In this document: positions 5,999-26,039 of the stretch, piece by piece
Position numbering within the stretch: position 1 is the stretch's first letter
How the letters are laid out: every line of letters starts with the position of its first letter
Source: Ruminococcus sp.
GTDB taxonomy: Bacteria; Bacillota; Clostridia; Lachnospirales; Lachnospiraceae
DNA length: 41,335 nt
Reading direction: 5' to 3'
NCBI GenBank assembly: GCA_023663085.1
Contig: JAMPIB010000033.1
Span: 1-41,335 of the forward strand
Program-made: the position numbers and the translations under genes
The notes under the pieces: generated by a model
Databases searched by the model: none
The model's input: only the letters and a program-made list of their open reading frames with translations
What the model was told of the DNA's origin: nothing

Positions 5999-6048
5999 AA
6001 AAAGCGATATTAAAAACCATATGAAAAGGTTTCTAATATCGCTTTTTG
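5998..6048 (-). terminator. Rho-independent terminator of the glucosidase operon
   Basis: A perfect 14-bp stem (AAAAAGCGATATTA at 5999-6012 with its complement at 6034-6047) encloses an inner AAACC/GGTTT helix. It lies about 40 bases beyond the stop of the glucosidase gene. In the minus-strand reading it ends in a run of U. It is nearly symmetrical and could also work on the plus strand. Confidence 0.8.
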
Positions 6049-6085
6049 TTGTTTCCTCCCTAAAATACAAATAAATTTGTACAAA

Positions 6086-10857: not shown

Positions 10858-10890
10858 AAGGTTTCCCAGAAATGGGAAACCTTTATTTTT
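10858..10890 (+). terminator. Rho-independent terminator after the flavin reductase
   Basis: A perfect 10-bp stem AAGGTTTCCC / GGGAAACCTT with a six-base loop (10858-10883) is followed by TATTTTTT. It lies 13 bases after the flavin reductase stop. Its right end overlaps the stop codon of the convergent UvrA-like gene, so it may serve both. Confidence 0.85.
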
Positions 10891-13390
10891 TCAAATATTT
10901 TCCAGTCAGACTGTCCTTATTATCACAAATTTCCCGCGGCGTTCCCCGCGCAATGACCCTTCCGCCATGAATACCGCCGCCCGGCCCCATGTCGATCACA
11001 TAATCAGCATTATGGATAACGTCCAGATCGTGTTCGACCACGATAACGGTCGCCCCGTTTTCAATCAACCTCTGAAATACATGCAGGAGTGTCTCTACAT
11101 CCAGCGGATGCAGGCCGATAGTCGGTTCGTCAAAGACAAATACAGAATCCGACTGTCCTTTTCCCATCTCGCTGGCTAATTTAAGCCTCTGCGCCTCTCC
11201 GCCGGACAAACTCGGCGTCTCTTCCCCCAGCGTCAGATATCCAAGCCCCAGCTCATGCAGTACCCGGAGTTTACGCTCCACCTGCGGAATATCCGCGCAG
11301 GCGGCCAGCGCCTCGTCAATACTCATATCCATCAGTTCGGGAAGTGTATACGCCCCATTGTTTTTCTTTACTATCCGCCTGATCAGTCCCGCTTCTTTCG
11401 CATACCGTGAACCGCCGCAATCCGGACAGGGAATCTCCACATCCGGCAGAAACTGTACATCCAGACTGATGGAGCCGGTTCCGTCGCAGACCGGACAGCG
11501 CAGTTTCCCTGTATTATAGGAAAAATCTCCCGCCTTATATCCTCGTTCTTTGGCATCGGGAGTCCGCGCGTATATTTTACGCAGTTCGTCGTGTACATCA
11601 GCATAGGTAGCCACCGTGGAACGGATATTGACACCGATTGGCGTGGCATCGATCAGCTTGACCTGACGAATGCCCTCTGCGGAGACAAAGAGCACATGTT
11701 CTGGCAGTTTTGTCCCTTTGATAGAGGCTTCGATCGCAGGAATCAGACTTTCCAAGACCATTGTCGTCTTTCCGGAACCGGAGACTCCCGTCACAGCGAT
11801 CAGACGGCCTTTCGGGAAATCCACTTCCAGTGGTTTCACCGTATGGATTTCAGAAGTAGACAGGCTGATTCTGCCAAATCCAAACATCTGTTCAGGAGAA
11901 ATCTGTCTGCCCAGATCAATCACGGACTTTCCCGTAAGAAAGCCGCCAATCCGGGAATCAGGATTCTGCTCTACCTCATCAAGCGTTCCCTGCGCGATGA
12001 TCGTACCGCCGCCTGCACCGGCCTCCGGCCCAAGCTCTATGAGCCAGTCCGCCTCGCAAAGCACATGTGGGTCATGGTCTACCAGAATGACCGTATTGCC
12101 ATCCGCTAAAAGATCGTGCATCACACCCGTCAAGCCTTCCATATTGGAGGGATGCAGGCCGATAGAGGGTTCGTCCAGCACATACAGCACGCCGGTAGTC
12201 CGGTTTCTGACCGCTCTCGCCAGCTGCATCCGCTGCCGTTCTCCTGTAGAAAGTGTGGATGCCGCGCGATCCAGAGTCAGATAGGAAAGGCCAAGGTCTG
12301 TCAACCGTTTGGCCGCGCTCTGGAAAGACTCACAGATACTGACTGCCATGGGACGCATTTCCTCCGGCAAAGAATCCGGTACGCCTTCCACCCACTCTGT
12401 TAATTCAGAAAGCGTCATCATACATGCCTCGGCAAGGGATATCCCGCGAAGCCTCGGTGCACGCGCCTCCTCTGAAAGCCTTGTTCCCCCGCAATCCGGG
12501 CAGATTCCCTGTCTTAAAAACTTCTCTACCCGCTTCATGCCTTTTTCATCTTTTACCTTGGACAACGCATTTTCCACAGTATAAGTGGCATTGAAATAGG
12601 TAAAATCCATATCGCCCGCCGCGCCGTTTGTTTTATTCTGATAGATGATGTTTTTCTTAACGGCAGGCCCGTGAAATACGATATCCCGTTCCTGTTCTGT
12701 CAGTTCGCAGAATGGCACATCCGTCCGCACTCCCATTTCGCGGGCGATATCTTTCATAAGCGACCACATCAATGTCTGCCAGGGGGCAACCGCACCTTCG
12801 TCAATAGATAGCGATTCGTCCGGTACGAGCGTCGATTCATCCACGGTGCGGACAATTCCGGTACCATCACAGCGTCTGCATGCTCCCTGACTGTTAAATG
12901 CCAGTTCCTCCGCGCCGGGCGCAAAAAAATGTTCTCCGCACTCCGGGCAGACAAGTTCCAGTCCCGCCGCCACATTGAAAGACGGCCTGACATAATGTCC
13001 GTTGGGACAGCGATGCTCGGCAAGCCTTGAATACATCAACCGCAGGCTGTTTAGAAGTTCTGTTCCCGTTCCAAAAGTGCTGCGTATTCCGGGAACGCCG
13101 GGACGCTGCCGCAGCGCAAGAGCCGCCGGAACATACAACACCTCGTCTACCTGTGCTTTTTCCGCCTGTGTCATACGTCTTCTTGTATAAGTTGAGAGAG
13201 CCTCCAGATACCGTCTGGAGCCCTCCGCATACAGAATGCCCAATGCCAGAGAAGATTTCCCCGAACCGGATACGCCCGCTATCCCGACGATTCTATGCAG
13301 CGGAATATCCACGTCAATATTTTTCAGATTATGTACCCTTGCCCCGCGCACCTTGATATGCGCGGGTGTTTTATCTGCTCTATGATCCAA
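10883..13390 (-). CDS. Short UvrA-like ABC ATPase (UvrA2 type)
   Basis: The 835-residue protein has two ABC ATPase modules: Walker A GVSGSGKSS near residue 40 with signature STGERQRMQLARAV and Walker B YVLDEPSIGLH, then Walker A GVSGSGKTT with signature LSGGEAQRLKLASEM and FVFDEPTIGLHP. Zinc-finger cysteines are present (CPVCDGTG ... CPDCGGSR). It is about 100 residues shorter than housekeeping UvrA (~940), and the insertion that binds UvrB appears reduced. Such paralogues are linked to resistance to DNA-damaging compounds rather than core repair. A TTG start at 13390 follows GGGGAT by a normal distance. It lies four bases after the CMD-cupin gene, downstream of a MATE exporter. Confidence 0.88.
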   Translation of the reverse strand: MDHRADKTPAHIKVRGARVHNLKNIDVDIPLHRIVGIAGVSGSGKSSLALGILYAEGSRRYLEALSTYTRRRMTQAEKAQVDEVLYVPAALALRQRPGVPGIRSTFGTGTELLNSLRLMYSRLAEHRCPNGHYVRPSFNVAAGLELVCPECGEHFFAPGAEELAFNSQGACRRCDGTGIVRTVDESTLVPDESLSIDEGAVAPWQTLMWSLMKDIAREMGVRTDVPFCELTEQERDIVFHGPAVKKNIIYQNKTNGAAGDMDFTYFNATYTVENALSKVKDEKGMKRVEKFLRQGICPDCGGTRLSEEARAPRLRGISLAEACMMTLSELTEWVEGVPDSLPEEMRPMAVSICESFQSAAKRLTDLGLSYLTLDRAASTLSTGERQRMQLARAVRNRTTGVLYVLDEPSIGLHPSNMEGLTGVMHDLLADGNTVILVDHDPHVLCEADWLIELGPEAGAGGGTIIAQGTLDEVEQNPDSRIGGFLTGKSVIDLGRQISPEQMFGFGRISLSTSEIHTVKPLEVDFPKGRLIAVTGVSGSGKTTMVLESLIPAIEASIKGTKLPEHVLFVSAEGIRQVKLIDATPIGVNIRSTVATYADVHDELRKIYARTPDAKERGYKAGDFSYNTGKLRCPVCDGTGSISLDVQFLPDVEIPCPDCGGSRYAKEAGLIRRIVKKNNGAYTLPELMDMSIDEALAACADIPQVERKLRVLHELGLGYLTLGEETPSLSGGEAQRLKLASEMGKGQSDSVFVFDEPTIGLHPLDVETLLHVFQRLIENGATVIVVEHDLDVIHNADYVIDMGPGGGIHGGRVIARGTPREICDNKDSLTGKYLKK

Positions 13391-13394
13391 CTCT

Positions 13395-14165
13395 TTATCC
13401 CCGCCTTTTTAAAAACAAGTTATTATATATTCCATCGTCTACCGCCTCCAGCCATTCATTGGAACTATTCTCACCGGGGACTTCAACTGCCAGATGAGAA
13501 AACCAGCTGTCTTTCGCCGCACCGTGCCAATGCTTTACACCGACCGGAATATTGACGACATCTCCCGGATGAAGTTCCTGCGCTTCTTTTCCTTCCTCCT
13601 GATAATACCCGCGCCCTGCGACACAGACCAGAATCTGCCCGCCGCCTTGATCCGCATGGTGGACATGCCAGTTGTTGCGGCATCCCGGCTCGAAGGTCAC
13701 ATTGAAAATCCCAACCTGCGACGTGGAAAGCGGAGCAAGATAACTTTGTCCGCTAAAATACTGTGCAAAGCCGTCATTGGGCGCGCCGATCGGAAACACC
13801 ATCTCCGCCGCATGGGCTGCCTTCGCATCTGCTCCCACAGCTTCCTCCTTCCACACATCCTTTGCCAGACGAAACACCGCCCAGCCCTTGGGCCAGCCCA
13901 CGTAGAATGCCGCATGAGTGATGATCGCCGCGGCTTCCGCCCTCGTGACGCCATGCGCCTTCGCGTTTTCCAGATGATAGATCAGCGAAGAATCCGTGAT
14001 ACCGGAAGCCATCAACGCTACCATCGTCACAATGCAGCGTGTTTTCAGGTCAATATCCTGATTGTTCCAGTTCTCTCCAAAAAGCACATCATCATTATAA
14101 TGTGCAAATTCCGGCGCAAAGTCGCCAAGCTGCATCTTTCCTGCTGTTTGTACAATTTTCTCCAT
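13395..14165 (-). CDS. Carboxymuconolactone decarboxylase-like / cupin two-domain protein
   Basis: Residues ~1-105 form a CMD/AhpD-like helical domain (LKTRCIVTMVALMASGITDS, AKAHGVTRAEAAAIITHAAF). Residues ~125-245 form a cupin with metal-binding His residues in NNWHVHHADQGGGQ and a second motif HPGDVVNIPVGVKHWHGA. The CxxC disulfide of AhpD is absent: the matching position reads SSLIYHL, so it is not a peroxidase-reducing AhpD. A role in detoxifying or rearranging a small organic acid or quinone fits the family. TAGGAGG precedes the start. It lies between the MATE exporter and the UvrA-like gene with gaps of 26 and 4 bases. Confidence 0.85.
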   Translation of the reverse strand: MEKIVQTAGKMQLGDFAPEFAHYNDDVLFGENWNNQDIDLKTRCIVTMVALMASGITDSSLIYHLENAKAHGVTRAEAAAIITHAAFYVGWPKGWAVFRLAKDVWKEEAVGADAKAAHAAEMVFPIGAPNDGFAQYFSGQSYLAPLSTSQVGIFNVTFEPGCRNNWHVHHADQGGGQILVCVAGRGYYQEEGKEAQELHPGDVVNIPVGVKHWHGAAKDSWFSHLAVEVPGENSSNEWLEAVDDGIYNNLFLKRRG

Positions 14166-14191: not shown

Positions 14192-15538
14192 TTATGATTT
14201 GATCACCTGAAAAGTTTTCCACTTTCCGGTTTTTTCCCTCCAGATAAACAGGACGGCCCGCACGATCCAGTCACATACCATGGCAAGGGCAATCCCGATC
14301 ACGCCCATCTCCAGAATAATCCCCAGCAGATACGACAAAAGCAGACGCACCAGGATCGTGGAAATAACCGACACATACATGGTAAATTTCACATCTCCCG
14401 CCGCGCGGAGTCCATTGCTTAATGCTCCCGAAAAGGGGAACGCCGCGGCATTAAATACATTATGAATCAGCACGAGCCATATCACCAGCCGCTTTGTTTC
14501 CGGTGACAGAGAGTAAAAATGTAAAAATACCGGAGTCATGATAAAGACCAAAGCATTCCATGCCGCACTGATCAAAAGTGTCCATTTTGTCAGTTTATTA
14601 AAATAATATTCTGCCGCCCCGGTATCTCCGGTTCCCATGCACTGTCCGATCACAGTAATGAATACCGGCCCCATAGCGACACCGGCTAAAGCCGCCAGTG
14701 ACCAGATGCTCTGTGCCACACCGTTCGCCGCAATCTGATAAGTACCGAACAATGCCACGATACTGCTAAGCGCCACTTTGACAAGCTGGAAGATACCGTT
14801 TTCTATGCCGTTTGGCACAGCTACATTCAGAATACTTTTCATCAGACTGCCATGCCAGCTAAAGATCCACCTGCCCCGATACACCACACCATTCTTTTCC
14901 CGAAAACAGAGAAAAGTGATGACCACCGCAGAAAAGACACGGGCAAGGAAAGACGGCCATGCAACACCGGCCACTCCGGCATGGAAAACAAAAACACCAA
15001 GCACATTGCCAGCGACATTGATCACATTGGAGACGACCGATATATACATGGTCACATTTGTTTTGCCAAGACTGCGGTAAACGGCCGCCCCTGCATTATA
15101 AACGGCAAGTGCCGGATAAGAATAGGCCGAGATCCGCAGGTACGTAATGCAGGCCTCCATGACAGACTGCTCCACTTTCCCGAACAACAGGCGCAACATC
15201 GCTTTATTTCCAAATAAAACCGCTGCCCCAAGCAGTACGGAAAAAACTGTAGAGAACATGAGAAGCTGGCTCGCGGACTCTCCCGCATGGTCTGCATCCT
15301 GTCTGCCGATATACTGGCTGATCACAACAGCCCCTCCGGAGGCAAGCGCTGTAAACAGGTAAATAAATATGGTATTAAACTGATTGACCAGAGACACTCC
15401 GGATACTGCTGCCTCCCCGGCATAGCTTATGACCAGCGTGTCCGCAAGCCCTACGAACATCACCAGAAGCTGTTCCAGAAACAAAGGCGCAATCATTTTT
15501 TTTAATTCCTGGTTAGTAAATAACCCGTTTTCATTCAT
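14192..15538 (-). CDS. MATE-family multidrug/Na+ antiporter
   Basis: The ~448-residue protein has about twelve membrane helices in two homologous halves. Typical MATE segments are visible: LVISYAGEAAVSGVSLVNQF, ALASGGAVVISQYIGRQDAD, and in the second half FGTYQIAANGVAQSIWSLAA and GMGPVFI-like VAMGPVFITVIGQCMGTGD. It exports cationic or aromatic compounds in exchange for Na+ or H+. The start at 15538 has AAAGGAAAGG upstream; an earlier frame start at 15583 overlaps the flavodoxin gene and lacks a site. It is 34 bases downstream of the flavodoxin lipoprotein gene and likely in its operon. Confidence 0.9.
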   Translation of the reverse strand: MNENGLFTNQELKKMIAPLFLEQLLVMFVGLADTLVISYAGEAAVSGVSLVNQFNTIFIYLFTALASGGAVVISQYIGRQDADHAGESASQLLMFSTVFSVLLGAAVLFGNKAMLRLLFGKVEQSVMEACITYLRISAYSYPALAVYNAGAAVYRSLGKTNVTMYISVVSNVINVAGNVLGVFVFHAGVAGVAWPSFLARVFSAVVITFLCFREKNGVVYRGRWIFSWHGSLMKSILNVAVPNGIENGIFQLVKVALSSIVALFGTYQIAANGVAQSIWSLAALAGVAMGPVFITVIGQCMGTGDTGAAEYYFNKLTKWTLLISAAWNALVFIMTPVFLHFYSLSPETKRLVIWLVLIHNVFNAAAFPFSGALSNGLRAAGDVKFTMYVSVISTILVRLLLSYLLGIILEMGVIGIALAMVCDWIVRAVLFIWREKTGKWKTFQVIKS

Positions 15539-15572: not shown

Positions 15573-16181
15573 CTAATCCCCAAAATCCAGCCCCAGACCG
15601 TTTACCCATTCCATAACTGTATCCTGCGAATCGCTGCCGTTCAGACGCTTTCCCGCAAGCCACTCTGTTCCATCCGTAAGCTGTTCCAGATTCGTCGCAG
15701 AAGAACCCACGCCGCTGCCGCCGGAAGTGCAGAATGGAACGATAGTTTTTCCATCAAAATCATAACTTTCAATAAACGTACTCATGATACGCGGCGCTTC
15801 GCTCCACCATATGGGGTATCCAAGGAACACAATATCATACTGTTCCATATTTTCTACCGAACCGGAAATTGCAGGGCGGACATCCGGATCATTCATCTCA
15901 ATCGTAGTACGGCTGTTATTATCATTATAATTCAAGTCTGCATCCGTATACGGCTCTTCCGGGACAATCTCGTAAATATCCGCATTCAGCCCTTTGGCGA
16001 TATGCTGTGCCACACCCTTTGTAGTATTAGTAGCGGAAAAATAGGCCACCAGAACTCTGGTTCCCTGCTCCTCCGGCTTCTCTTCTGTAGAAGGTTCTGC
16101 TGTCTGTTCTGCGGAATTTCCGCAGGCCGCCAGACTCAAAATCATAACCAACAAAAGTAAAACAATGATCGCTTTTTTCAT
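15573..16181 (-). CDS. Flavodoxin-like lipoprotein
   Basis: The ~203-residue precursor has a hydrophobic signal and lipobox LSLAAC (Cys20), a short Glu-rich linker, and a flavodoxin domain. FMN-binding motifs are YFSATNTTKGVAQHI (phosphate loop), LGYPIWWSEAPRIM (flavin stacking) and FCTSGGSGVGSS. It therefore carries FMN on the outer face of the membrane, an uncommon place for a flavodoxin but seen in gut Firmicutes. GGAGG sits seven bases before the ATG at 16181; a second ATG at 16184 is adjacent. The promoter 16248-16276 drives it and probably the MATE, CMD-cupin and UvrA-like genes behind it. Confidence 0.88.
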   Translation of the reverse strand: MKKAIIVLLLLVMILSLAACGNSAEQTAEPSTEEKPEEQGTRVLVAYFSATNTTKGVAQHIAKGLNADIYEIVPEEPYTDADLNYNDNNSRTTIEMNDPDVRPAISGSVENMEQYDIVFLGYPIWWSEAPRIMSTFIESYDFDGKTIVPFCTSGGSGVGSSATNLEQLTDGTEWLAGKRLNGSDSQDTVMEWVNGLGLDFGD

Positions 16182-16204
16182 CATAATACCTCCTAAACCA
16201 AAAA

Positions 16205-16247: not shown

Positions 16248-16288
16248 ATTATAAAGATATGCCTTATATATATCAAATACTTGATTTT
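16248..16288 (-). promoter_or_regulatory. Promoter and shared box of the flavodoxin-MATE-CMD-UvrA operon
   Basis: On the minus strand TTGATA (16271-16276), a 17-base spacer and a perfect TATAAT (16248-16253) form a strong promoter. The plus-strand sequence ATATCAAATACTTGATTTT (16270-16288) over the -35 shares 12 of its first 13 bases with the boxes at 19623 and 24016. The spacer also contains AAGGCAT, the half-site of the palindrome in the promoter of the adjacent LysR gene. Confidence 0.65.
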
Positions 16289-16293
16289 TATAG

Positions 16294-17178
16294 CTAACCC
16301 ATGCCCAAAAAGCATTTTGCATATTCTATAAATTTCGTCGCCGCCAGACCAAAAGGCTGTTCCCGTTTCCATGCCAGAACACATGTTGCCATAAGTTCCG
16401 GATACAATGGCCGACAGACAATTTTTGACGAATCCCAGAAAGGAACCGCGCCCTCAATGACCAGAGAATATGCCAGTCCCCTGTTTACCATAACTGCGCC
16501 GTTGGTACTCAGATTACTGGTGAACAGGATATTCAGATTTTTATAATAGTCCCCAAACCAATTTGCCAGTTCACTCTGCACCTGCATCCGCCGCGGAAGG
16601 ATCAGTGGTAAATCCGCCAGTTCTCCTGCCGTAACATGCTCTTTTTTCGCAAGCGGATCATCCGGCGGTATCAAAACCACCCATCTTTCTTTCCTGTCCA
16701 AACGGATAAACTCATATTTTCCCATCTCGACCGGTTCCAAAAGCAGCCCCAGATCAAGCAGTCCCTTTTCCATCTGTTCCTTTACCAAATCCGCAGTCGC
16801 GGTAAAAATATCAAAGGTAACAAGCGGATATTTCTGATGAAAACTTTCTATCAGATCCGGGAGCATCTGTACAGACGCAACCTCTCCACAGCCAATAGAA
16901 ATCTTTCCTTCTACCTGCTCCTCCTGTTCCACCAGTTCTTTTTCTGTCTTGTCAACAAGCTGTAAAATCTCTTCTGCGCGGCGGCGCAACAGGATACCTT
17001 CATTGGTCAATCTGATCTTACGCGTTCCCCTATCAAAAAGTCTGACGCCAAGTTCTTCCTCCATCTGTGCAAGCTGTCTGGAAAGTGTCGGCTGTGTAAT
17101 ATGTAACACTTCCGCTGCTCCGGTAATGCTTTCTTCCCTGACTACAGTCAGAAAATAACGCAGGACTCTGATCTCCAT
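16294..17178 (-). CDS. LysR-family transcriptional regulator
   Basis: The ~294-residue protein starts MEIRVLRYFLTVVREESITG and has the LysR winged HTH (AAEVLHITQPTLSRQLAQME), then a periplasmic-binding-like effector domain (residues ~90-290). AGGAG lies seven bases before the ATG at 17178. It sits 113 bases upstream of the flavodoxin lipoprotein gene on the same strand, unlike the usual divergent LysR layout. Both its own promoter and that of the flavodoxin gene contain AAGGCAT between -35 and -10, so it probably controls both. It is a paralogue of the LysR at 24113 and of the remnant near 600. Confidence 0.9.
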   Translation of the reverse strand: MEIRVLRYFLTVVREESITGAAEVLHITQPTLSRQLAQMEEELGVRLFDRGTRKIRLTNEGILLRRRAEEILQLVDKTEKELVEQEEQVEGKISIGCGEVASVQMLPDLIESFHQKYPLVTFDIFTATADLVKEQMEKGLLDLGLLLEPVEMGKYEFIRLDRKERWVVLIPPDDPLAKKEHVTAGELADLPLILPRRMQVQSELANWFGDYYKNLNILFTSNLSTNGAVMVNRGLAYSLVIEGAVPFWDSSKIVCRPLYPELMATCVLAWKREQPFGLAATKFIEYAKCFLGMG

Positions 17179-17219
17179 ATGGGAACTCCTTTCGGGTCTA
17201 TTCATGCTTTACAGGCTAT

Positions 17220-17248
17220 ATTATAAGGCATTTATGCCTTTTGAGCAA
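17220..17248 (-). promoter_or_regulatory. Promoter and palindromic operator of the LysR gene
   Basis: TTGCTC (17243-17248), 17 bases, TATAAT (17220-17225) on the minus strand. The spacer is almost filled by the palindrome AAGGCAT-tt-ATGCCTT (17225-17240), placed where a bound protein would block or remodel RNA polymerase, consistent with autoregulation. Confidence 0.6.
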
Positions 17249-17255
17249 TACCCTG

Positions 17256-17693
17256 TCAAAGAGAAAGCACCGCCGTTACACTCCCGTCCCCCAATATATC
17301 TTTAAGTTCCTGCTGCGTCATATCCTCAATCTTTCCCAGCCTTGTAAGACTCCACGAATTGGTATCATAATAAATGACAAAAGAGTTCCCCTGATATAAA
17401 ATCAAGTCTCCGGCCCCCGTATTGATCTGTTCGTCATTCCTCGGCAGACTTTCAGGCAGAGAACCCACTTTCTCCATACCTGCATAATCATTCATCTCGA
17501 TCGTGACCGGCCCCTTGGAAAGCATTTCGATAAGCGCCTCCGTAGAAGAATTTTGTACCAGGGTTGCCGTCAGCACATTGTCTCCGATCTGAATATTCAT
17601 TTTCATGTCATTTTCCTCCTCCCGCGTATTCCCGCAGGCCATAACAAAGCCAGCGAATACAAAAACAAAAAAGATACCTAAAAATCGCTTCAT
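17256..17693 (-). CDS. Cyclophilin-like-fold lipoprotein
   Basis: The ~145-residue precursor has a signal segment ending in a lipobox (FVMAC, Cys19) and then a domain with MNIQIGDNVLTATLVQNSST, VTIEMNDYAGMEKVGSLP and GDLILYQGNSFVIYYDTNSW. This is the pattern of the cyclophilin-like beta-barrel family formerly DUF369 (PF18050). These proteins are not shown to be isomerases. I start it at 17693 behind GGGAGGGG; the frame continues upstream to 17759 within the DUF3737 gene. It is the last gene of a four-gene operon whose first gene encodes a second lipoprotein of similar type. Confidence 0.8.
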   Translation of the reverse strand: MKRFLGIFFVFVFAGFVMACGNTREEENDMKMNIQIGDNVLTATLVQNSSTEALIEMLSKGPVTIEMNDYAGMEKVGSLPESLPRNDEQINTGAGDLILYQGNSFVIYYDTNSWSLTRLGKIEDMTQQELKDILGDGSVTAVLSL

Positions 17694-17719
17694 ACCATAA
17701 CCCCTCCCAACTTTCAAAT

Positions 17720-18613
17720 CTACGCGCAGACACACATCTCTTTTGCCGCAGATCTGCATCTGTCCTTATCCTGCCTGCATATAATCTTTGTTCTGGCCGG
17801 GTCGATACGGTCCGTTTCCAGAATCAACTCACCGATTTCATCTGCATGAATCTCTCCGCAAAGAGGATTTTTCACACTGTCGATACTGCCGCATACCGTT
17901 GCCCGGACTTCGCTGTTTTCAAACGATAAGTCCGTCTGCTCCATCGTGCAGTCTTCTAAAACCAGCCCTTTACAATAACACAGCGGCTGTGTGCCGATGA
18001 TCTTACAGCGGACAAGTTTCAGATTTTCCGAATACCAGCCGAGATACTCGCCGCGGACAACGCAGTCCTCCACGGTCACATTTTTGCTGTGCCAGAAGGC
18101 ATCTTTGGTATTCAGATCAGAATTACGGATTATCGCATTTTCCACATACTGAAACGAATATTTCCCTGTCATTGTCAGGTTATTAATTTCCATATCCCTG
18201 CACTCGAAAAACGGGTATTCCGATTCCAGACTGCAATCCTTAATCCATAAATCGCTGCACCGCCACGCGAACTCCGGCGAATGGATATCACATTCGCTTA
18301 AGGAAAGTTTTCCATGGCATTCCCGCAGAGCCTTGATTCCGTTCATCCGGCACTTTTCCATCGTAATATCCTCATCGTACCACAACGCCGCCCGGCACCC
18401 CTCCGTCATGGTGATATCCCGGATAGCGGCGCCTCTCGTATGCCAGAAAGGATAGCGGAGATTAAAATAACATCTCTCCACCGTGATATCCGAAGTTTCT
18501 TTCAAAGCGGATTCCCCATCCGCCGGGCCGTCAAAAGAACAGTCCGCGATATGCGCTCCGTTTATGCCATATAAAGCACGTTCCTCATCATAAGTTTTAT
18601 TGCTAAATTCCAT
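17720..18613 (-). CDS. DUF3737-family parallel beta-helix protein
   Basis: The ~297-residue protein begins MEFSNKTYDEERALYGINGA and is built from short repeated strands with a regular '...DCxFxG / ...CxF...PFWH...' pattern, as in the DUF3737 family (PF12541), a right-handed beta helix. Many Cys, Trp and acidic residues line the repeats. It has no signal peptide, so it is cytoplasmic. GAGGAG lies seven bases before the start at 18613. It follows the 75-residue protein by 23 bases and precedes the cyclophilin-like lipoprotein. The biochemical role of the family is unknown. Confidence 0.85.
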   Translation of the reverse strand: MEFSNKTYDEERALYGINGAHIADCSFDGPADGESALKETSDITVERCYFNLRYPFWHTRGAAIRDITMTEGCRAALWYDEDITMEKCRMNGIKALRECHGKLSLSECDIHSPEFAWRCSDLWIKDCSLESEYPFFECRDMEINNLTMTGKYSFQYVENAIIRNSDLNTKDAFWHSKNVTVEDCVVRGEYLGWYSENLKLVRCKIIGTQPLCYCKGLVLEDCTMEQTDLSFENSEVRATVCGSIDSVKNPLCGEIHADEIGELILETDRIDPARTKIICRQDKDRCRSAAKEMCVCA

Positions 18614-18636
18614 AATCAGTCTCCTCACTTTCCGCA

Positions 18637-18864
18637 TTATGCTTCTTTATCCATCTGCCAGACCAGATAGTCCAGACAATCAATATGTTTCTGCGCTGTA
18701 TGCAGATCCTCTAACAGCATACGCCTGTGCGTCTCCAGCAGCCGCTTACCGGATTCCACCTCGCCCTGCCGGATGTCCTCGACAAACTCGGTGATCGTAT
18801 CCGCACCGCATCCGGCGTCTTTTAAATTCTGGATCATTTCTGTTTCCGAAGAATAGCCTCTCAT
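18637..18864 (-). CDS. 75-residue helical protein of unknown function
   Basis: This small soluble protein is predicted to be nearly all helix, with acidic and basic heptad-like patches (EFVEDIRQGEVESGKRLLET; DLHTAQKHIDCLDYLVWQMD). It has a GGAAGG site before the ATG. It lies between the cyclophilin-like lipoprotein gene (38 bases upstream) and DUF3737 (23 bases downstream) and is evidently part of that operon. The 'LDYLVWQM' end resembles the C-terminal end of MerR-type coiled-coil domains, but no DNA-binding domain is present. I do not assign a function. Confidence 0.65.
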   Translation of the reverse strand: MRGYSSETEMIQNLKDAGCGADTITEFVEDIRQGEVESGKRLLETHRRMLLEDLHTAQKHIDCLDYLVWQMDKEA

Positions 18865-18902
18865 TGTCTTTACCTTCCTTCATCCCCGTTATCACAGAAT
18901 CC

Positions 18903-19526
18903 TTAGTCAATGCTCTGTATCAATACTATTTTGTTATTCCAGCCTTCCAGAACAGGATTATTTTCCACCGCTTCTACAAACTCGTCTGTATAATCAAAAT
19001 ATCCCACCTTAGTATATTCGGCAAAGATTTCCGCGTCATGATAAAACAAAACGATACGGTTCGGCTCTGAATAATATACCTCTCCGCCTTTTACCTCTGT
19101 AACAGTTTCCGCATCCGAGGGTATCTCATACCGGCTGGGAACATCATAATACTGCATAACCTCCCAGTTCTCATAATCATCATAGTGATATATCGGAAGC
19201 TGCCATCTGGCTGTCCCGACATGATGCGCGATAGCGGCCGCCGTATCATTCTCATACAGATGCAGGATAAATGGTTCCCCGTCAGCGCCAAAGCAGACCT
19301 CGATCTCAACCGCTTCTGCCAGCGCTCTGCTCCCGCCGTCTTCCGTAACAGCGCTTTCCTCCGCCACAGAACTGTCATTTAGCTCATTTTCCATCTGAGC
19401 GGCATTTTCTGCGCTCTGTTCTACAGTGTCCGTCTCCTGCTTTTGCCCGCATCCAACAAGCATGATCGACAGCATCAGGGGCCAAAAACATATACTTGCA
19501 AATATTCCTGTTTTATTCCGTCTCAT
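18903..19526 (-). CDS. Cyclophilin-like-fold lipoprotein with a long acidic linker
   Basis: The ~207-residue precursor has an N-terminal signal with lipobox (IMLVGC), then a ~45-residue Glu/Ser/Ala-rich linker, and a C-terminal cyclophilin-like domain. The domain shows EPFILHLYENDTAAAIAHHV, ending in GGEVYYSEPNRIVLFYHDAE and GYFDYTDEFVEAVENNP. Start 19526 is preferred: GGAAAGGA is six bases upstream, and the preceding ATG abuts it. It is first in the operon with the 75-residue protein, DUF3737 and the smaller cyclophilin-like lipoprotein. Its promoter carries the shared box. Confidence 0.78.
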   Translation of the reverse strand: MRRNKTGIFASICFWPLMLSIMLVGCGQKQETDTVEQSAENAAQMENELNDSSVAEESAVTEDGGSRALAEAVEIEVCFGADGEPFILHLYENDTAAAIAHHVGTARWQLPIYHYDDYENWEVMQYYDVPSRYEIPSDAETVTEVKGGEVYYSEPNRIVLFYHDAEIFAEYTKVGYFDYTDEFVEAVENNPVLEGWNNKIVLIQSID

Positions 19527-19591
19527 GGTCATTCCTTTCCTGCGTCAGTTTTCTGACACATCTGCATTTTCAATTTTTAAATATCCCGTCT

Positions 19592-19641
19592 CTATACAGT
19601 AGTATAGTCTGTGTTCTTTCGCATAGCAAATACTTATATCA
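19592..19641 (-). promoter_or_regulatory. Promoter and shared box of the lipoprotein-DUF3737 operon
   Basis: TTGCTA (19624-19629), 17 bases and TATACT (19601-19606) form the minus-strand promoter. The plus-strand box ATAGCAAATACTTATATCA (19623-19641) covers the -35 and is 17/19 identical to the box at 24016-24034. A second element, the perfect inverted repeat CTATAC-agta-GTATAG (19592-19607), overlaps the -10. Confidence 0.65.
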
Positions 19642-19674
19642 CATATTATTCTATAGTTAAAAAGCATAGTATGT

Positions 19675-22026
19675 TTACTCTGAGATCAAAACAGTCAGAT
19701 CAGTTCTTTTCATTTTCCCGGCCGCCAGATACGCGAAGCAGATAAACAGCAAAACAACAATACCGCCCGGAAGTAAAGTATTGCCGACGTCTGCCTGAGA
19801 AGCAAAATTACTGATCCCTGCAAACTTCATGACTGCCGATACCAACAGATCCGTAAAAACAGCCGACAGGATCGTACCGGCCACGGAACCGGCCAACGCC
19901 GCCATACCAAAGCGCAAGGCAAAAGTCATCCGCAGTTCGTTTGTCCGGAAACCGATTGCCTTATAAATGCTCATATCCTTTTGCTCCGCATACAGAATCT
20001 TACTGCCGGCCATGACTGTTACAATCAGGATAAAGCCAAAAACCAGTACATACATCAAAACCAGAAGCGCCTGCATGGCGGAAATAATACCAAAAAGTCC
20101 CGGCCAGGTATTCTCATGGACATGGACATCCCCTCCGTAAGCGGACTCCAACGCTTCTGTGATCGCCGCTTTTTGAGACGTATCGGCAAGAAAATAATGC
20201 CAGCACCAGATATGGGGATTATCCTGTCCGATCTTCAGATATCCTTCCCGGCTCAGCCCCACGTTATCTCCCATGTCATTAGCACAGGAATAAATACCCG
20301 AAACGATATACTCACCGCTGCCGCTATCTCCGCTGACCATGACTGTATCTCCGATGGTAACACCGAAACTGTCCGCCACAAATTCCGTCAGCACAATCTC
20401 ATTATCCGCCATACAGGTTTTTCCTGCCAGAATATGAAACCGTTCCGGCTCAGAGATCACATTCGCTGTATAATCTACACCATTTACTGCCACCCCCGGC
20501 ATGGCAAGCTGATAAGTATCCGTAACATCTGTGTAAGTTCGTATCATCTCTTCCGCCTCTTTTGCGCTCAGATCTCCGAATACCTGAACGCCGATATCGT
20601 GATCCGCCGGATTGAAAGCATCCATCATACCTTTGCCGTCTGCCCCCAGCCAGGAATTCATCCGCCCCACTAAAGAAGCAAAGAACACCAGAAGGACCGC
20701 TACGATCAATGTCCCTGTGTACCGCCGCTTTCCACTGACAAGCTGTCTGTATGCCAGCCTTAAAGGCAGCACATTGCCAAAAGCCGGGACCGTCTTTTTC
20801 AGGGAAAAGCGCATCTTCTCCGCTTCGCCGCGTATCGCCTTCATAGGTGTGATCTTGCGGATTCTCCCTACACGCAGAAAAATAAAACCCATAAGCAGAA
20901 TAATGATTACCGCCGCAGACACCGCACACCACAAAAGCGGCAGCTGCGTCGGTATCCGCATCCCAATCGTAGTAACAATCGCTCCGCTCACAAACCGTCC
21001 CGCCACAACTGCCAGCAACAACCCGCCAAACATTCCGGCCATAACAGGGAACAGATATTGCAGCATCTGGATCCGCCGCAGTTTTACTGATGTAAAACCA
21101 ATCGTTTTGAGGATTCCCATATTCACAGTATCTTCTTCCAGCGAACTGTCAATGCTGTGTCCAAGCGCCACACAGACGGTAAACAGCAGCACGGCCACGA
21201 AAGCGATCAGTAAACCGCTGAAGGCATTTTGCAGGATCAGCATAAAACCTGCAATAGCTTCTTTGCTGTGTACAAACTCCGCAAATTCTGGCAGGGAAGT
21301 TTTTTCATTGATGACACCGTTTAATTCTGACACGTTCATCTGAGCATCCGGCTGTGCGAAAATATGCAGCATGGCTCCATCCCTTGCCAGCGCGTCAATT
21401 CCTGCGTTTTGCAGAATGTCCAGTATCTCCCTGCGGTCTTCCTCACAGATCAGAAACCCTTTCATCCCGATCATGGAACTGCCCATAAAAGGGTCTTCAT
21501 AAAATCCTTTGATGATAAACACCTTATTTTTTCCCGCCCTTGCAATGGGAAAGGTAATTTCATCTCCGATCGTTACCCCAAACATGGATACCAGAGAGGG
21601 CGATACATATATTTCACCGGGCGCAATAGCGGGCGCCGTCTCCCGATATGAAGAAATATCTTCCGTAAAAAAGCGGTAACGTCCTTCTTCCGGCACGAAA
21701 GAGATTAGTTGTCCTTCACTGTCAGATTCCTGCTCTCCAATTTCATAATTTGCAAAGATAAGCGGCTGGACTTCTACTTTTTGGATCTCCGGCAGCCCGC
21801 TTATCTCATCAGCCAGTTTATTCCTGTCAGGCACATTAGAAACCCAGGCGGTGAGATTGCCAAACCCCGCCCGCTCCATTTCTTCCCGGATAAAACTCTG
21901 TGAATTCAGCCAAATCGTCAGTACCGTACCGAGCGCCGCGGCTGTCAGCATGAGCAGTATCCCTATGCCGGCCAGAGTTCCCTTATGTTTCTTTATGTCT
22001 GCTTTTAATAAAATGACATTTTCCAT
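19675..22026 (-). CDS. FtsX/MacB-type ABC transporter permease
   Basis: The 783-residue protein starts with one membrane helix (GTLAGIGILLMLTAAALGTV), then a large extracytoplasmic domain, three helices, a second extracytoplasmic domain and three final helices. This is the two-FtsX-domain plan of Gram-positive lipid, peptide or lipoprotein exporters. FtsX segments LGHSIDSSLEEDTVNMGILK and ILYAEQKDMSIYKAIGFRTN are clear. It works with the ATPase encoded 18 bases upstream and is in the operon with the Ntn-hydrolase lipoprotein. Such permeases often move or sense antimicrobial peptides or lipids rather than small solutes. Confidence 0.88.
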   Translation of the reverse strand: MENVILLKADIKKHKGTLAGIGILLMLTAAALGTVLTIWLNSQSFIREEMERAGFGNLTAWVSNVPDRNKLADEISGLPEIQKVEVQPLIFANYEIGEQESDSEGQLISFVPEEGRYRFFTEDISSYRETAPAIAPGEIYVSPSLVSMFGVTIGDEITFPIARAGKNKVFIIKGFYEDPFMGSSMIGMKGFLICEEDRREILDILQNAGIDALARDGAMLHIFAQPDAQMNVSELNGVINEKTSLPEFAEFVHSKEAIAGFMLILQNAFSGLLIAFVAVLLFTVCVALGHSIDSSLEEDTVNMGILKTIGFTSVKLRRIQMLQYLFPVMAGMFGGLLLAVVAGRFVSGAIVTTIGMRIPTQLPLLWCAVSAAVIIILLMGFIFLRVGRIRKITPMKAIRGEAEKMRFSLKKTVPAFGNVLPLRLAYRQLVSGKRRYTGTLIVAVLLVFFASLVGRMNSWLGADGKGMMDAFNPADHDIGVQVFGDLSAKEAEEMIRTYTDVTDTYQLAMPGVAVNGVDYTANVISEPERFHILAGKTCMADNEIVLTEFVADSFGVTIGDTVMVSGDSGSGEYIVSGIYSCANDMGDNVGLSREGYLKIGQDNPHIWCWHYFLADTSQKAAITEALESAYGGDVHVHENTWPGLFGIISAMQALLVLMYVLVFGFILIVTVMAGSKILYAEQKDMSIYKAIGFRTNELRMTFALRFGMAALAGSVAGTILSAVFTDLLVSAVMKFAGISNFASQADVGNTLLPGGIVVLLFICFAYLAAGKMKRTDLTVLISE

Positions 22027-22043
22027 TCACACACCACCTTCTC

Positions 22044-22805
22044 TTACCATTGTAAAGAAGCAAGCCATTGTGTCACCCTGCTCTCTCTGTCAGAGCGTTC
22101 ATCCTGCAGATAAGAAGGAAGTGACAACTCATCCAGTATCCTTCCATCTTCCAGATAAAGCAGGCGGTTTCCCCGGATCGCCGCCCGTACATCGTGCGTC
22201 ACCAGCAAGATACTCTGTCCGTTCTCATGCAGATTGGTCAGAAGATTCAGCACTTCCTCACTATTGGCTTTATTCAGGGCGCCTGTCGGTTCATCCGCAA
22301 AGATCAGTTCCGGTTCATTTATCACACTTCTTGCCACAGCCGCACGCTGCGCCTCGCCGCCGGATACCTGCGATGGCAGACGATTCCTGGCCCCCTCCAC
22401 TTTCATCCGGGTAAGAAGATCTGCCGCACGCTTTTCCACCGCCCTTTTGTCCTGCTTTTTTCCCATATACCCCGCAACCACAACATTTTCCAACAGGCTC
22501 AGATTACTGACAAGATGTGTCTGCTGGAAAACAAAGCCGAATTTTTCCGCCCGCAGCGCTGCCATTTTCTTTTCCGAAAACCGGTTCATTTCCTCTCCCT
22601 GAAATATGACCGAACCGCCTGTGACAGCATCCATCCCGCCAAGGGCATACAAAAGCGTGGACTTTCCGGTGCCGGAAGAACCCATGATGACAGTAAAGTC
22701 TCCTTTGAAAATATCTATATTGACATGATCCAGCACATTGATTTCTTTTTCTTTACCCGGAAAAGTTTTGCATATATCCTTTCCGGAAAGCAATATATCC
22801 TTCAT
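22044..22805 (-). CDS. MacB/LolD-type ABC transporter ATPase
   Basis: The 253-residue protein has Walker A GSSGTGKSTL, Q-loop VFQQTHLVSNLSLLENV, signature VSGGEAQRAAVARSV, Walker B LIFADEPTGALN and the His-switch VTHDVRAA. The 'FADEPTGALNKANS' wording is typical of MacB/LolD-type exporters paired with FtsX permeases. A GGAGG site precedes the ATG. The permease follows 18 bases downstream and the Ntn-hydrolase lipoprotein gene ends 28 bases upstream. Confidence 0.93.
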   Translation of the reverse strand: MKDILLSGKDICKTFPGKEKEINVLDHVNIDIFKGDFTVIMGSSGTGKSTLLYALGGMDAVTGGSVIFQGEEMNRFSEKKMAALRAEKFGFVFQQTHLVSNLSLLENVVVAGYMGKKQDKRAVEKRAADLLTRMKVEGARNRLPSQVSGGEAQRAAVARSVINEPELIFADEPTGALNKANSEEVLNLLTNLHENGQSILLVTHDVRAAIRGNRLLYLEDGRILDELSLPSYLQDERSDRESRVTQWLASLQW

Positions 22806-22833
22806 TCGTTTACCTCCGTTTGTTTTATCATCT

Positions 22834-23958
22834 CTAACTGTCCTGTCCTATTCGGAAAATGTAGCCGTATTCATAATTCTCCCTGTGATAATACCATGCC
22901 TCCCCGCTGCTTTGGTTAAATACCACACTCCATTCGGTAGATTCAAATTCGCCAAAATTTCCTTTGCTCACGCTGCGTAAAGCGTCCCTGACATCTTCTG
23001 CGGACATGATTCCGCTCTCTTTAAGGCGTTCTGTCAGCATTTCATAGCGAGTATGCGACTGCGCCGTTCCAATCCCTTTCTTATCCCCTTCGGCCATATA
23101 AAAATTCGTAACGACCGGTGTCTGGACCACCACCATTTCATTGTCCACATATTCCACCACTACGCTCTTACCATCTGCGTCCGCGATCGCAAAATGCACC
23201 ATATAATTCATGGATGCGTGCAGATCATACTTTTCAAGCAGAGCAACGGCCTCCGCCGTATCCGCCGCCTGATCTAACAGCAGCCGCACGGCAGTCGTAG
23301 TCGTAATATCCGGCCTCTCTGTATCCTGAGCGATCGTGGCATTATCCTGTATCATATTGACCGATACCACAAGTCCCTTTTCATTCATTCCATCAAGCGG
23401 TGCATATAACGCGATAAGCGCCTTCATCTCATCGGGAAGATGGGAAAATCCCACTCCCTGAATGAAATCCGTGTTTACGGTAGAGATGGACGCATAGCCG
23501 CTTTCGGGAACAGATTGTACGATCATGGCATTACAGCGGTTCCAGTCGAAATTTCTCCCAAACAACTGCCCGCCGTCCGTATTTTTTACAGAAATTGTAC
23601 TGCATCCAAAGGGATCTCCTCCAAAAGAAAAATCTCCGGCATCTCCGACAAGATATCCCAGCAAAAACGCCGCCACATCAGCATCCGAAGAAGCCCCTCC
23701 CCCTGCAAGATATTCCTCAAAACCATAATCTCCTTCAAACTTAACGGCCGACAGACCGCTTTCCAACTCTACCACTTCTGAACTTAATGATATAATACGC
23801 ATATCCGCTTCTGAATCCGCATCATCTGGCAATGAGCCACTCTTCTCATTGAAATTTGCCGACCGCTCAGCAGATGTCTCTGTATTATTTCCACACCCGA
23901 TAAGCAGAAAAATTATAACAGCAAACATGCAGACAACTGCCGCACCTTTATATTTCAT
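22834..23958 (-). CDS. C45/penicillin-acylase-like Ntn-hydrolase lipoprotein
   Basis: The ~374-residue precursor has a signal with lipobox FLLIGC (Cys22), a ~95-residue pro-region, then an Ntn-hydrolase core starting at Cys119 in GCSTISV and continuing GRNFDWNR, PLDGMNEKGLVVSVNM and TTTTAVRLLLDQ. In the acyl-CoA:6-APA acyltransferase (C45) and linear amide hydrolase families, self-cleavage before this Cys makes it the N-terminal nucleophile. Cleavage of linear amides, such as N-acyl amino acids or bile-salt-like amides, outside the cell is plausible. Start 23958 follows GGGAGG. It leads the operon with the ABC exporter and is divergent from a LysR gene. Confidence 0.82.
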   Translation of the reverse strand: MKYKGAAVVCMFAVIIFLLIGCGNNTETSAERSANFNEKSGSLPDDADSEADMRIISLSSEVVELESGLSAVKFEGDYGFEEYLAGGGASSDADVAAFLLGYLVGDAGDFSFGGDPFGCSTISVKNTDGGQLFGRNFDWNRCNAMIVQSVPESGYASISTVNTDFIQGVGFSHLPDEMKALIALYAPLDGMNEKGLVVSVNMIQDNATIAQDTERPDITTTTAVRLLLDQAADTAEAVALLEKYDLHASMNYMVHFAIADADGKSVVVEYVDNEMVVVQTPVVTNFYMAEGDKKGIGTAQSHTRYEMLTERLKESGIMSAEDVRDALRSVSKGNFGEFESTEWSVVFNQSSGEAWYYHRENYEYGYIFRIGQDS

Positions 23959-23993
23959 GATGAACCTCCCGTCTGACAGCATTTTTCAAATAT

Positions 23994-24034
23994 AGTATAA
24001 TTCGCGGAAATACAAATAACAAATACTCATATCA
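23994..24034 (-). promoter_or_regulatory. Promoter and shared box of the Ntn-hydrolase/ABC exporter operon
   Basis: TTGTTA (24017-24022), 17 bases and TATACT (23994-23999) form the minus-strand promoter about 35 bases upstream of the start at 23958. The plus-strand box ATAACAAATACTCATATCA (24016-24034) covers the -35 and matches the box at 19623-19641 at 17 of 19 positions. Confidence 0.65.
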
Positions 24035-24040
24035 AATATC

Positions 24041-24078
24041 ATACCATGCTTGACAGGCATGGTATTACGTGTTATGTT
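24041..24078 (+). promoter_or_regulatory. LysR promoter with inverted-repeat operator
   Basis: TTGACA (24050-24055), 17 bases and TATGTT (24073-24078) form the plus-strand promoter of the LysR gene. The -35 forms the loop of a perfect 9-bp inverted repeat, ATACCATGC / GCATGGTAT (24041-24049 and 24057-24065), a layout expected for autorepression. Confidence 0.65.
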
Positions 24079-24112: not shown

Positions 24113-24988
24113 ATGGAGCTTCGCGTTCTACAATATTTTCTGGCCGTAGCAAGAGAACAGAGCATATCCGGCGCCGCGGAATACCTACACCTTTCCCAGC
24201 CCACGCTTTCACGCCAGCTAAAAGACCTGGAAGATGAACTCGGCAAACAGCTTTTTATCCGCGGGAGCCGCAAAATAACGCTGACTGACGAGGGTATGAC
24301 GCTGCGAAGACGGGCGGAAGAAATTTTAGACCTTGTCAAAAAGACCGAGGATGAGATCACCCTCTCCGACGAAACGATAACGGGCAATGTCTATATCGGC
24401 GCCGGAGAAACGGAATCCCTGCGCATTCTGGCCCGTGCCGCTTATGAACTGCAAAAGACTTTTCCCGGAATCTGCATCCATATATCCAGCGGCGACAGTG
24501 TCGATGTAACGGAACGGCTGAATAAAGGACTAATTGATTTCGGTGTTTTGTTTGACCCTACCGATCTATCCGAATACAATCATTTACACCTTCCTGCCAA
24601 AGACGAATGGGGTGTCCTGATGCGGCGCGACGCTCCCCTGTCCGAAAAAGAAGTAATAACACCGGAAGATCTGCGGGATAAGCCGCTCATCATCTCCCGT
24701 CAGCAAATGGAAGGCAGTCCCCTGTCCGTGTGGTTAAAGGAAGATTTTGCCAGACTGCATATCGTGGCGACTTACAGCCTGATCTATAACGGTTCTCTTA
24801 TGGTGGAGGAAGGCATGGGATATGCGCTGTGCCTGAACCATATCATCAATCCGACAGGAGAGAGCAACCTGTGTTTCAAACCGCTTTCCCCTAAACTTGA
24901 CGTCGGATTGAACGTCGTGTGGAAAAAATATCAGTTTTTTAATAAAGCGTCAGAAAAATTTCTGGAAAAACTGCAGGAATTGATATAA
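24113..24988 (+). CDS. LysR-family transcriptional regulator
   Basis: The 291-residue protein starts MELRVLQYFLAVAREQSISG, has the LysR HTH AAEYLHLSQPTLSRQLKDLE and a full effector domain ending near LLEKLQELI-type residues. GGGGGA precedes the ATG. It is divergent from the Ntn-hydrolase/ABC exporter operon, with a 154-bp shared region that holds its own palindromic operator and the box found at two other promoters in the window. It is the most likely regulator of the shared box, although the paralogue at 16294 is an alternative. The last codons are inside the first copy of a 15-bp tandem repeat. Confidence 0.92.
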   Translation: MELRVLQYFLAVAREQSISGAAEYLHLSQPTLSRQLKDLEDELGKQLFIRGSRKITLTDEGMTLRRRAEEILDLVKKTEDEITLSDETITGNVYIGAGETESLRILARAAYELQKTFPGICIHISSGDSVDVTERLNKGLIDFGVLFDPTDLSEYNHLHLPAKDEWGVLMRRDAPLSEKEVITPEDLRDKPLIISRQQMEGSPLSVWLKEDFARLHIVATYSLIYNGSLMVEEGMGYALCLNHIINPTGESNLCFKPLSPKLDVGLNVVWKKYQFFNKASEKFLEKLQELI

Positions 24989-25040: not shown

Positions 25041-26039
25041 ATGACCATACAAGAAGCCTGCCATATCCTCGGACTTACGCCAGACGCCGGACTATCAGAG
25101 ATCAAAAAGAAATATCGGGAACTTATGAGGCAGGTTCATCCCGACATGTCCCGTCATCATAATCATCTTAAGGCGGGAAAATGTGCCTATACTGCACATG
25201 AGATCAACACCGCTTATGCTGTTTTGAAGGAAAAAACAGCCGGCACATCCGAAACGGACATCCGTCAGACCAAAAATCAGAACCCAAAGAAAAAGCAGAC
25301 CGCAAAGAAAAAAACTCCTGTCACATGGAACGCCCCTGTCAATCAGGGCGCCTATATAGAACGCGAGATCCTGCAATACGCCGAAGATGCGGGGGGCGCT
25401 GTTTTAGGACATTTCTGTATCGCCAGAGGAAAATATATGTGGACTACAGACGAAGACTTCTCTCTGTTCCTGCTCAGTCTCTATCAGTGCGGCAGGCAGA
25501 TACTAGATGAAGCGGACAACCGGCTTGGCCGCGATGATGCGCCTGCAGGCAGACCGCAGTTTCAGGCAGAACTTACCTATCTGCTGGCACAGCAGTTCAT
25601 AGCACAGACCACACTGTTAGAAGAACTTGCCAAAGAAAAAAATGCCGACGCGGACGGAAACCGTATTTTCTATATGCCCGCCATGCTGGAGACTTCCGGC
25701 AGAGCGCGCCCGTTTAAGCCGGGCGAAAATCTTTATCCGGCCGGAGTCAGACAACACCGCCTGTATCTGGCGGATCGAAACGGTCAGGAAACGGGATATC
25801 TCTCTTTTCCTGACGATCGCCTGTATTATGTCGTTATCCCGCTTTTTGAACAGAAGGTCGTGCAGATTAAAGTTCAGACCGCCGAAAGCCAGCCGGAACC
25901 AAAGAAAAAAGCGCGGGCCGCCTATCAGAATCTTCATCTGTGGCTAAAGCTGTCTGACAGCGCGTGCGCAAAACTGCCGGAGAATCTGAATCTGCAAATT
26001 GAGAAGGTGTTGAAAGAATATAAGTTCCGGCCGCGGTAA
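25041..26039 (+). CDS. J-domain protein with an unknown C-terminal domain
   Basis: Residues ~1-70 form a J domain: helix II KKKYRELMRQ, the HPD motif at residues 33-35 and a long loop before helix III (HEINTAYAVLKEK). Then comes a Lys-rich linker (residues ~75-95) and a ~235-residue domain I do not recognise. There are no zinc-finger or Gly/Phe regions, so it is not DnaJ itself but a specialised co-chaperone that would recruit DnaK. An AAAGAAAGGA site precedes the ATG. It follows the LysR gene by 52 bases and may be co-transcribed with it; its relation to the lipoprotein cluster is not clear. Confidence 0.85.
   Translation: MTIQEACHILGLTPDAGLSEIKKKYRELMRQVHPDMSRHHNHLKAGKCAYTAHEINTAYAVLKEKTAGTSETDIRQTKNQNPKKKQTAKKKTPVTWNAPVNQGAYIEREILQYAEDAGGAVLGHFCIARGKYMWTTDEDFSLFLLSLYQCGRQILDEADNRLGRDDAPAGRPQFQAELTYLLAQQFIAQTTLLEELAKEKNADADGNRIFYMPAMLETSGRARPFKPGENLYPAGVRQHRLYLADRNGQETGYLSFPDDRLYYVVIPLFEQKVVQIKVQTAESQPEPKKKARAAYQNLHLWLKLSDSACAKLPENLNLQIEKVLKEYKFRPR

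Follow-up and report, generated by a model that had tools for sequence, protein, structure and literature searches.

A promoter box shared by three Ruminococcus sp. operons as the probable proximal half of related LysR-type operators

Genes and operators at the locus

The window analyzed here is a stretch of 41,335 nucleotides from Ruminococcus sp. (Lachnospiraceae; GenBank assembly GCA_023663085.1, contig JAMPIB010000033.1, positions 1 to 41,335), in which a short box, ATANCAAATACTY, lies at the promoters of three minus-strand operons (Ntn-hydrolase/ABC exporter, cyclophilin-like/DUF3737 and flavodoxin/MATE/CMD-cupin), and which also encodes two LysR-type transcriptional regulators (LTTRs), LysR1 and LysR2. 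The three exact matches to the box, all on the plus strand, occupy positions 16270–16282, 19623–19635 and 24016–24028; the minus-strand promoters beneath them have the −35 hexamers TTGATA, TTGCTA and TTGTTA, respectively, each followed after 17 bases by a −10 hexamer (TATAAT, TATACT and TATACT). Coordinates and promoter scan agree on this placement, already described in an earlier note on this DNA, and the 19-base sequences quoted there for 19623 and 24016 stand as given. That note saw only the proximal half of the element and missed the distal dyad: a second dyad is found 30–31 bp further out at all three boxes. The box is very probably the promoter-proximal half of a bipartite LTTR operator, as judged from the sequence comparisons presented below. 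The regulators and the predicted operator parts are as follows.

24113..24988, plus strand: LysR1, LTTR with HTH_1 and LysR_substrate domains, divergent from the Ntn-hydrolase operon
16294..17205 (listed open reading frame, ORF), minus strand: LysR2, paralogous LTTR, head-to-tail with the flavodoxin gene
24016..24030, plus strand: LysR1-class proximal site, like an activation site, over the −35 TTGTTA of the Ntn-hydrolase/ABC operon; LysR1-model score 58.6
24046..24060, plus strand: LysR1-class distal dyad ATGCTTGACAGGCAT, like a regulatory site, 30 bp from the box
19623..19637, plus strand: LysR1-class proximal site over the −35 TTGCTA of the cyclophilin-like/DUF3737 operon; LysR1-model score 50.7
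19653..19667, plus strand: LysR1-class distal dyad ATAGTTAAAAAGCAT, 30 bp from the box
16270..16284, plus strand: LysR2-class proximal site over the −35 TTGATA of the flavodoxin operon; LysR2-model score 77.2
16301..16315, plus strand: LysR2-class distal dyad ATGCCCAAAAAGCAT, 31 bp from the box, in the last lysR2 codons
17220..17248, minus strand: putative lysR2 promoter, TTGCTC-17-TATAAT, with an overlapping dyad; read by eye and absent from the promoter-scan list

When the end of the −10 hexamer is set as −7, the centres of the box and of the dyad would lie at −36 and −66, so that a T-N11-A dyad near −65 and a second site near −35, the arrangement of LTTR promoters, are both present at positions counted from the −10. 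The distal dyad at 24046 sits within a 25-bp palindrome (24041–24065) and also contains the −35 of lysR1 (TTGACA). Over positions 16294–16320 the end of the lysR2 coding sequence also forms the distal dyad in the operator of the operon that follows.

Both regulators score above the cut-off for an N-terminal LysR helix-turn-helix and for the substrate-binding domain. They are 42% identical and have the helix-turn-helix stretch QPTLSRQL in common, just as the boxes have the core CAAATACT in common. The conserved start of LysR2, MEIRVL, lies at about 17178, inside the listed ORF. Searched against a structure database, LysR1 matched LTTRs of a general kind, among them CysB, BenM and OxyR, and from their domain make-up LysR1 and LysR2 can be regarded as a canonical LTTR pair. 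The best-scoring NCBIfam LTTR model for both is CidR (NF047520); identity with CidR was rejected, the scores of 140.5 and 160.8 bits being far below the equivalog cut-off of 415. LysR1 is divergent from its target with a shared operator between them, whereas LysR2 is arranged head-to-tail. The putative lysR2 promoter and its dyad, which were also seen by eye in some of eight LysR2 upstream regions, suggest that LysR2 possibly regulates its own gene.

Frequency of the box and conservation of the LysR1-class operator

The promoter scan of the window returned 22 promoter-like sites versus 18.6 in shuffled sequences, and −35 and −10 hexamers alone are therefore little proof. Exact matches to ATANCAAATACTY, on the other hand, are enriched far above chance, with three in the window versus a mean of 0.017 and a maximum of 1 in 300 shuffled windows. 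Degenerate matches are not enriched: with up to two mismatches there are 12 in the window versus 8.6 expected, a number reached by 17 of 100 shuffles, and with up to one mismatch there are 52 in the organism's own genome (an assembly 90.73% complete, in 95 contigs) versus 96 for the reversed pattern. The degenerate counts are what a chance likeness between AT-rich promoters would produce, but the three exact matches and the recovery of the boxes by models trained on other genomes leave that explanation with a negligible probability.

The genome holds five exact matches, the three of the window and two others: C77:66781 falls within an ORF, and C67:2906 lies between two larger ORFs and is overlapped by one of 74 amino acids. 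The latter was considered as a further regulon member and dropped, as its exact box comes without a dyad. All 49 own-genome matches with up to one mismatch outside the window were read, and the remaining operator is absent from every one of them, the LysR1 model scoring them at 0.0 or less and the LysR2 model at −10.0 or less; the three window boxes score 50.7–77.2 with the models of their own class, versus at most 0.0 at these 49.

Conservation was followed in two partly overlapping sets of LysR1 relatives. The first comprises all 23 proteins from other genomes that match LysR1 at 55% identity or more; a 19-base box with up to three mismatches starts 84–175 bp upstream of the LysR start in 19 of the 23 loci. 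Among the remaining four, two (L103 and L109) have five mismatches yet keep CAAATA, L095 offers only 90 bp upstream, and L112 has none. The second set, from a separate scan, comprises 80 loci, 79 of them with enough upstream DNA, in which the 15-base box has no mismatch in 34, one in 24, two in 10 and at least three in 11. A box with up to two mismatches is therefore found upstream of 68 of 79 relatives, versus 0.5% of 1580 shuffles, and in 65 of these 68 sites an ATR-N9-YAT dyad starts exactly 30 bp from the box start (29 bp in one, absent in two). An information profile was computed from the ungapped alignment of 68 sites, retained out of 71 with up to three mismatches after removal of three near-copies; a few low-scoring sites in it are probably misplaced. 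Its conserved islands are the −10 with its 17-bp spacer, the box, a short AAT and the dyad, the last of which also holds the lysR1 −35 at LysR1 loci. The proximal site thus appears well conserved in sequence, with the caveat that the sites were chosen by that very box. Records of this LTTR subfamily, found in Bacillota, are labelled Lachnospiraceae, Oscillospiraceae, Butyricicoccus, Gemmiger, Anaerorhabdus and others; the loci of Blautia schinkii (L216) and Clostridium sp. ASF356 (L204) are among those with the LysR1 operator.

Could the box be an extended −35/−10 promoter type, kept for sigma-factor reasons with no LysR bound? The exact overlap with the −35 and the 17-bp spacer to the −10 agree with such a type. 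Conservation nevertheless extends beyond the two hexamers, 65 of 68 sites keep the upstream dyad at exactly 30 bp, and the rest of the operator is missing from all 49 near-matches found elsewhere in the own genome, all of which makes a mere promoter type highly improbable compared with a bipartite LTTR operator.

Two side observations concern the relatives themselves. In the closest relative of the 80-locus set (L195) the LysR1 operator is intact and the LysR1 match is split over two ORFs of 113 and 161 amino acids (6001–6879); no LysR2-class site was found at this locus, and the gene there whose best hit is LysR2 seems, when read by eye, to be another LysR. Moreover, of the 23 rows that are less than 55% identical to LysR1, four (L048, L051, L117 and L167) form a third paralogue group, in whose upstream regions a two-part arrangement of this kind can be seen by eye around a different core, CAAAAAACTAT or CAAAAAGCTAT; the bipartite layout may therefore predate the core of the box.

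Two operator classes, two regulators and their predicted targets

Position-weight models were built for the two classes, the LysR1 model from other genomes with the window left out and the LysR2 model from seven sites with the window and L191 left out (a first version including L191 was rebuilt without it on account of its 30-bp spacing, with unchanged outcome). The LysR1 model gives 58.6 at 24016, 50.7 at 19623, −22.3 at 16270 and at most −14.3 elsewhere in the window; the LysR2 model gives 77.2 at 16270, −7.1 at 19623 and −20.1 at 24016. In 100 shuffled windows the two models reached at most −1.2 and −4.9. In relatives, each operator class adjoins its own LysR clade. The proposal of the earlier note that LysR proteins control the three promoters is thus strongly supported by conservation, whereas its further claim of one system under common control is not supported, as 19623 and 24016 fit the LysR1 model and 16270 fits the LysR2 model.

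A single regulator, LysR1, acting at all three promoters would be in keeping with the common CAAATACT core, with the QPTLSRQL stretch identical in both proteins and with the adjacency of the three promoters in one block. It is unlikely, however, given the reversed scores of the 16270 box and the other two, and given that the 31-bp class tracks lysR2, which lies on contigs apart from LysR1 in two genomes (G006 and G015). In all likelihood there are two sister regulons with related operators. Some cross-binding of LysR1 and LysR2 may occur at these operators because the core and the QPTLSRQL stretch are shared.

On the protein side, a search of the own genome with LysR1 at E 1e-40 matched only LysR1 and LysR2, and at the same threshold a LysR1-type match is present in 30 of the 61 genomes searched, the own genome included. 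In a tree of 119 proteins, 96 LysR1-like and 8 LysR2-like sequences, grouped by their identity to the window proteins, are separated with support 100/99; the LysR1 set against all rows of the tree receives 95/85, and 15 rows belong to neither group. By this tree LysR1 and LysR2 form separate clades.

The LysR2-class operator was sought in 12 regions around LysR2 and flavodoxin relatives, eight of which contributed sites (L183–L185 and L187–L191). The box ATATCAAATACTT lies downstream of lysR2 and ahead of flavodoxin, MATE or CMD genes, and the dyad, mostly ATGCYYAAAARGCAT, is 31 bp from it in 7 of the 8 sites, the window being left out, and 30 bp in L191. A further LysR2 relative with a weaker box, outside the training set (L186), receives 41.8 from the LysR2 model; counting it, all seven regions with a LysR2 of 69–82% identity have such a site. 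L192, L193 and L194 yielded no LysR2-class site. In locus L185 of genome G015 the operator stands ahead of flavodoxin with an upstream ORF that is not lysR2; lysR2 is found on another contig than this operator, beside a second LysR2-class site, an arrangement that supports action of LysR2 in trans. Apart from these genes, a DnaJ-like ORF was seen by eye beside the flavodoxin cluster of one relative (L183, 9959–10561), and in the window a DnaJ-domain protein (25041–26039, plus strand) follows lysR1.

Several points weigh against the reading of two bipartite operator classes with an activating LTTR for each. Transcription starts are inferred from the −10 hexamers, and activation rather than repression is assumed from the LTTR family. 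Eleven of the 79 LysR1 relatives have no box with up to two mismatches in the 260 bp searched. The separation of the clades is partly circular, owing to the way in which the groups were set. The LysR2 model consists of seven sites from close relatives, and L191, from a genome that has no close LysR2, shows a LysR2-like box with 30-bp spacing. Finally, the distal dyad lies inside the lysR2 coding end at 5 of the 7 training sites as well as in the window, and protein conservation therefore contributes to the LysR2-class signal; the dyad positions in L183, just past the lysR2 stop, and in L185 argue against a purely coding cause. With these reservations, the comparison of relatives shows the anatomy of the predicted operators and their linkage to each LysR clade, and LysR1 would be expected to bind at the Ntn-hydrolase/ABC and cyclophilin-like/DUF3737 operons, LysR2 at the flavodoxin/MATE/CMD-cupin operon. 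The genes concerned, all on the minus strand, are the following.

22834..23982, minus strand: C45-family Ntn-hydrolase (CBAH/AAT; NF040521 above cut-off), first gene of LysR1 target operon 1
22044..22805, minus strand: ABC exporter ATPase (domain match)
19675..22026, minus strand: FtsX/MacB-like ABC permease (domain match)
18903..19532, minus strand: Cyclophil_like2 protein (domain match), first gene of LysR1 target operon 2
18637..18864, minus strand: 75-amino-acid protein with DAGC and CLDYL motifs, recurring beside LysR1
17720..18637, minus strand: DUF3737 protein (domain match)
17256..17759 (listed ORF), minus strand: second Cyclophil_like2 protein, real start probably nearer 17696
15573..16184, minus strand: flavodoxin (Flavodoxin_4; NF005501 above cut-off), first gene of the LysR2 target operon
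14192..15538, minus strand: MATE exporter (domain match)
13395..14165, minus strand: CMD-cupin fusion (domain match)
10883..13390, minus strand: UvrA paralogue of 835 amino acids, at the end of the flavodoxin gene string

The Ntn-hydrolase, the first Cyclophil_like2 protein and the flavodoxin have, by eye, a lipoprotein-like N-terminus. For the 75-amino-acid protein no convincing family was found, with no Pfam or NCBIfam match at E 0.001. The LysR1 neighborhood varies from locus to locus around a constant LysR: in the DNA fetched for the 80 loci, homologues were counted of the 75-amino-acid protein in 29, DUF3737 in 26, the second Cyclophil_like2 protein in 23, the ABC ATPase, a broad family, in 23 and the Ntn-hydrolase in 18. 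Elsewhere in these loci 13 further LysR1-class sites score above 25; none lies inside a called ORF, and all are oriented like the lysR1-promoter site, with targets on the strand opposite lysR1. The downstream gene is visible at nine of them: the 75-amino-acid protein comes first at three, DUF3737 at one and a 106-amino-acid protein followed by DUF3737 at one, the others being by eye MATE (one), aldo-keto reductase (two) and hydrolase (one). The further site in L235, 199 bp upstream of another LysR paralogue, may belong to that neighbor.

The UvrA paralogue, which scores 721.3 bits, just below the 729.8 cut-off of the UvrA model TIGR00630, has a homologue in none of the 80 LysR1 loci and none was recognized by eye in the LysR2 clusters, which places it outside the conserved gene set. 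A defence-gene scan of five window proteins yielded only ATPase-type matches to this paralogue.

Proposed control and relation to known systems

We propose that a LysR1 tetramer would occupy the symmetric dyad near −66 together with the box near −36 at the 24016 and 19623 promoters, and that LysR2 would adopt the same layout at the flavodoxin promoter (16270), where the half-site starts are 31 rather than 30 bp apart. A presumed small-molecule inducer would shift the proximal dimer and allow RNA polymerase to use the −35 under the box. Induction through LysR1 would then switch on the Ntn-hydrolase with its ABC exporter and the cyclophilin-like and DUF3737 proteins, and induction through LysR2 the flavodoxin, the MATE exporter and the CMD-cupin protein. 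Since the 24046 dyad covers the lysR1 −35, LysR1 bound there should repress its own gene. Judging from the types of the targets, small compounds that are toxic or reactive may be exported, hydrolyzed and reduced in a flavin-dependent way at the envelope. More tentatively, and with some doubt, it could be that the site over the −35 is a conserved core shared by the paralogues, and that the distal dyad and the spacing difference of 1 bp (30 versus 31) decide which of them acts.

BenM/CatM and OxyR are classical LTTR promoters with such a two-site layout. LysR1 and LysR2 resemble the classical LTTRs in their domain make-up, in the inferred −66 and −36 sites and in the T-N11-A dyad, and LysR1 also in being divergent with the distal dyad over its own promoter; LysR2 differs in standing head-to-tail with its target, with the distal dyad in its own coding end. 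CidR, the nearest NCBIfam LTTR model, is too distant to name either protein. The account of LTTR promoters in PMC5603801 places the regulatory site, a T-N11-A sequence, near −65 and the activation site near −35, and states for the latter that no conserved motif had been identified; unlike that description, the proximal site appears strongly conserved in sequence here. Among open-licence PMC papers, judged by titles and the starts of abstracts, no matching system was found for DUF3737 or for LysR with flavodoxin, cyclophilin-like, CMD or Lachnospiraceae, and the string CAAATACTTAT occurred only in papers that are unrelated by title. The kind of system is well known; the operator, its form with two paralogues and the breadth of its conservation look new within the literature searched.

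For an LTTR subfamily in Bacillota, the analysis provides an operator that can be tested, defined by exact coordinates and by a position-weight model, and would tie little-characterised proteins (DUF3737, Cyclophil_like2, the 75-amino-acid protein and a C45 Ntn-hydrolase with its ABC exporter) to one regulator. It also offers a natural test of how paralogous LTTRs stay separate with nearly identical proximal sites. If the more tentative reading of a shared core is true, sister LTTRs would read a near-identical half-site, and the envelope/export and flavodoxin/efflux regulons would show graded cross-talk.

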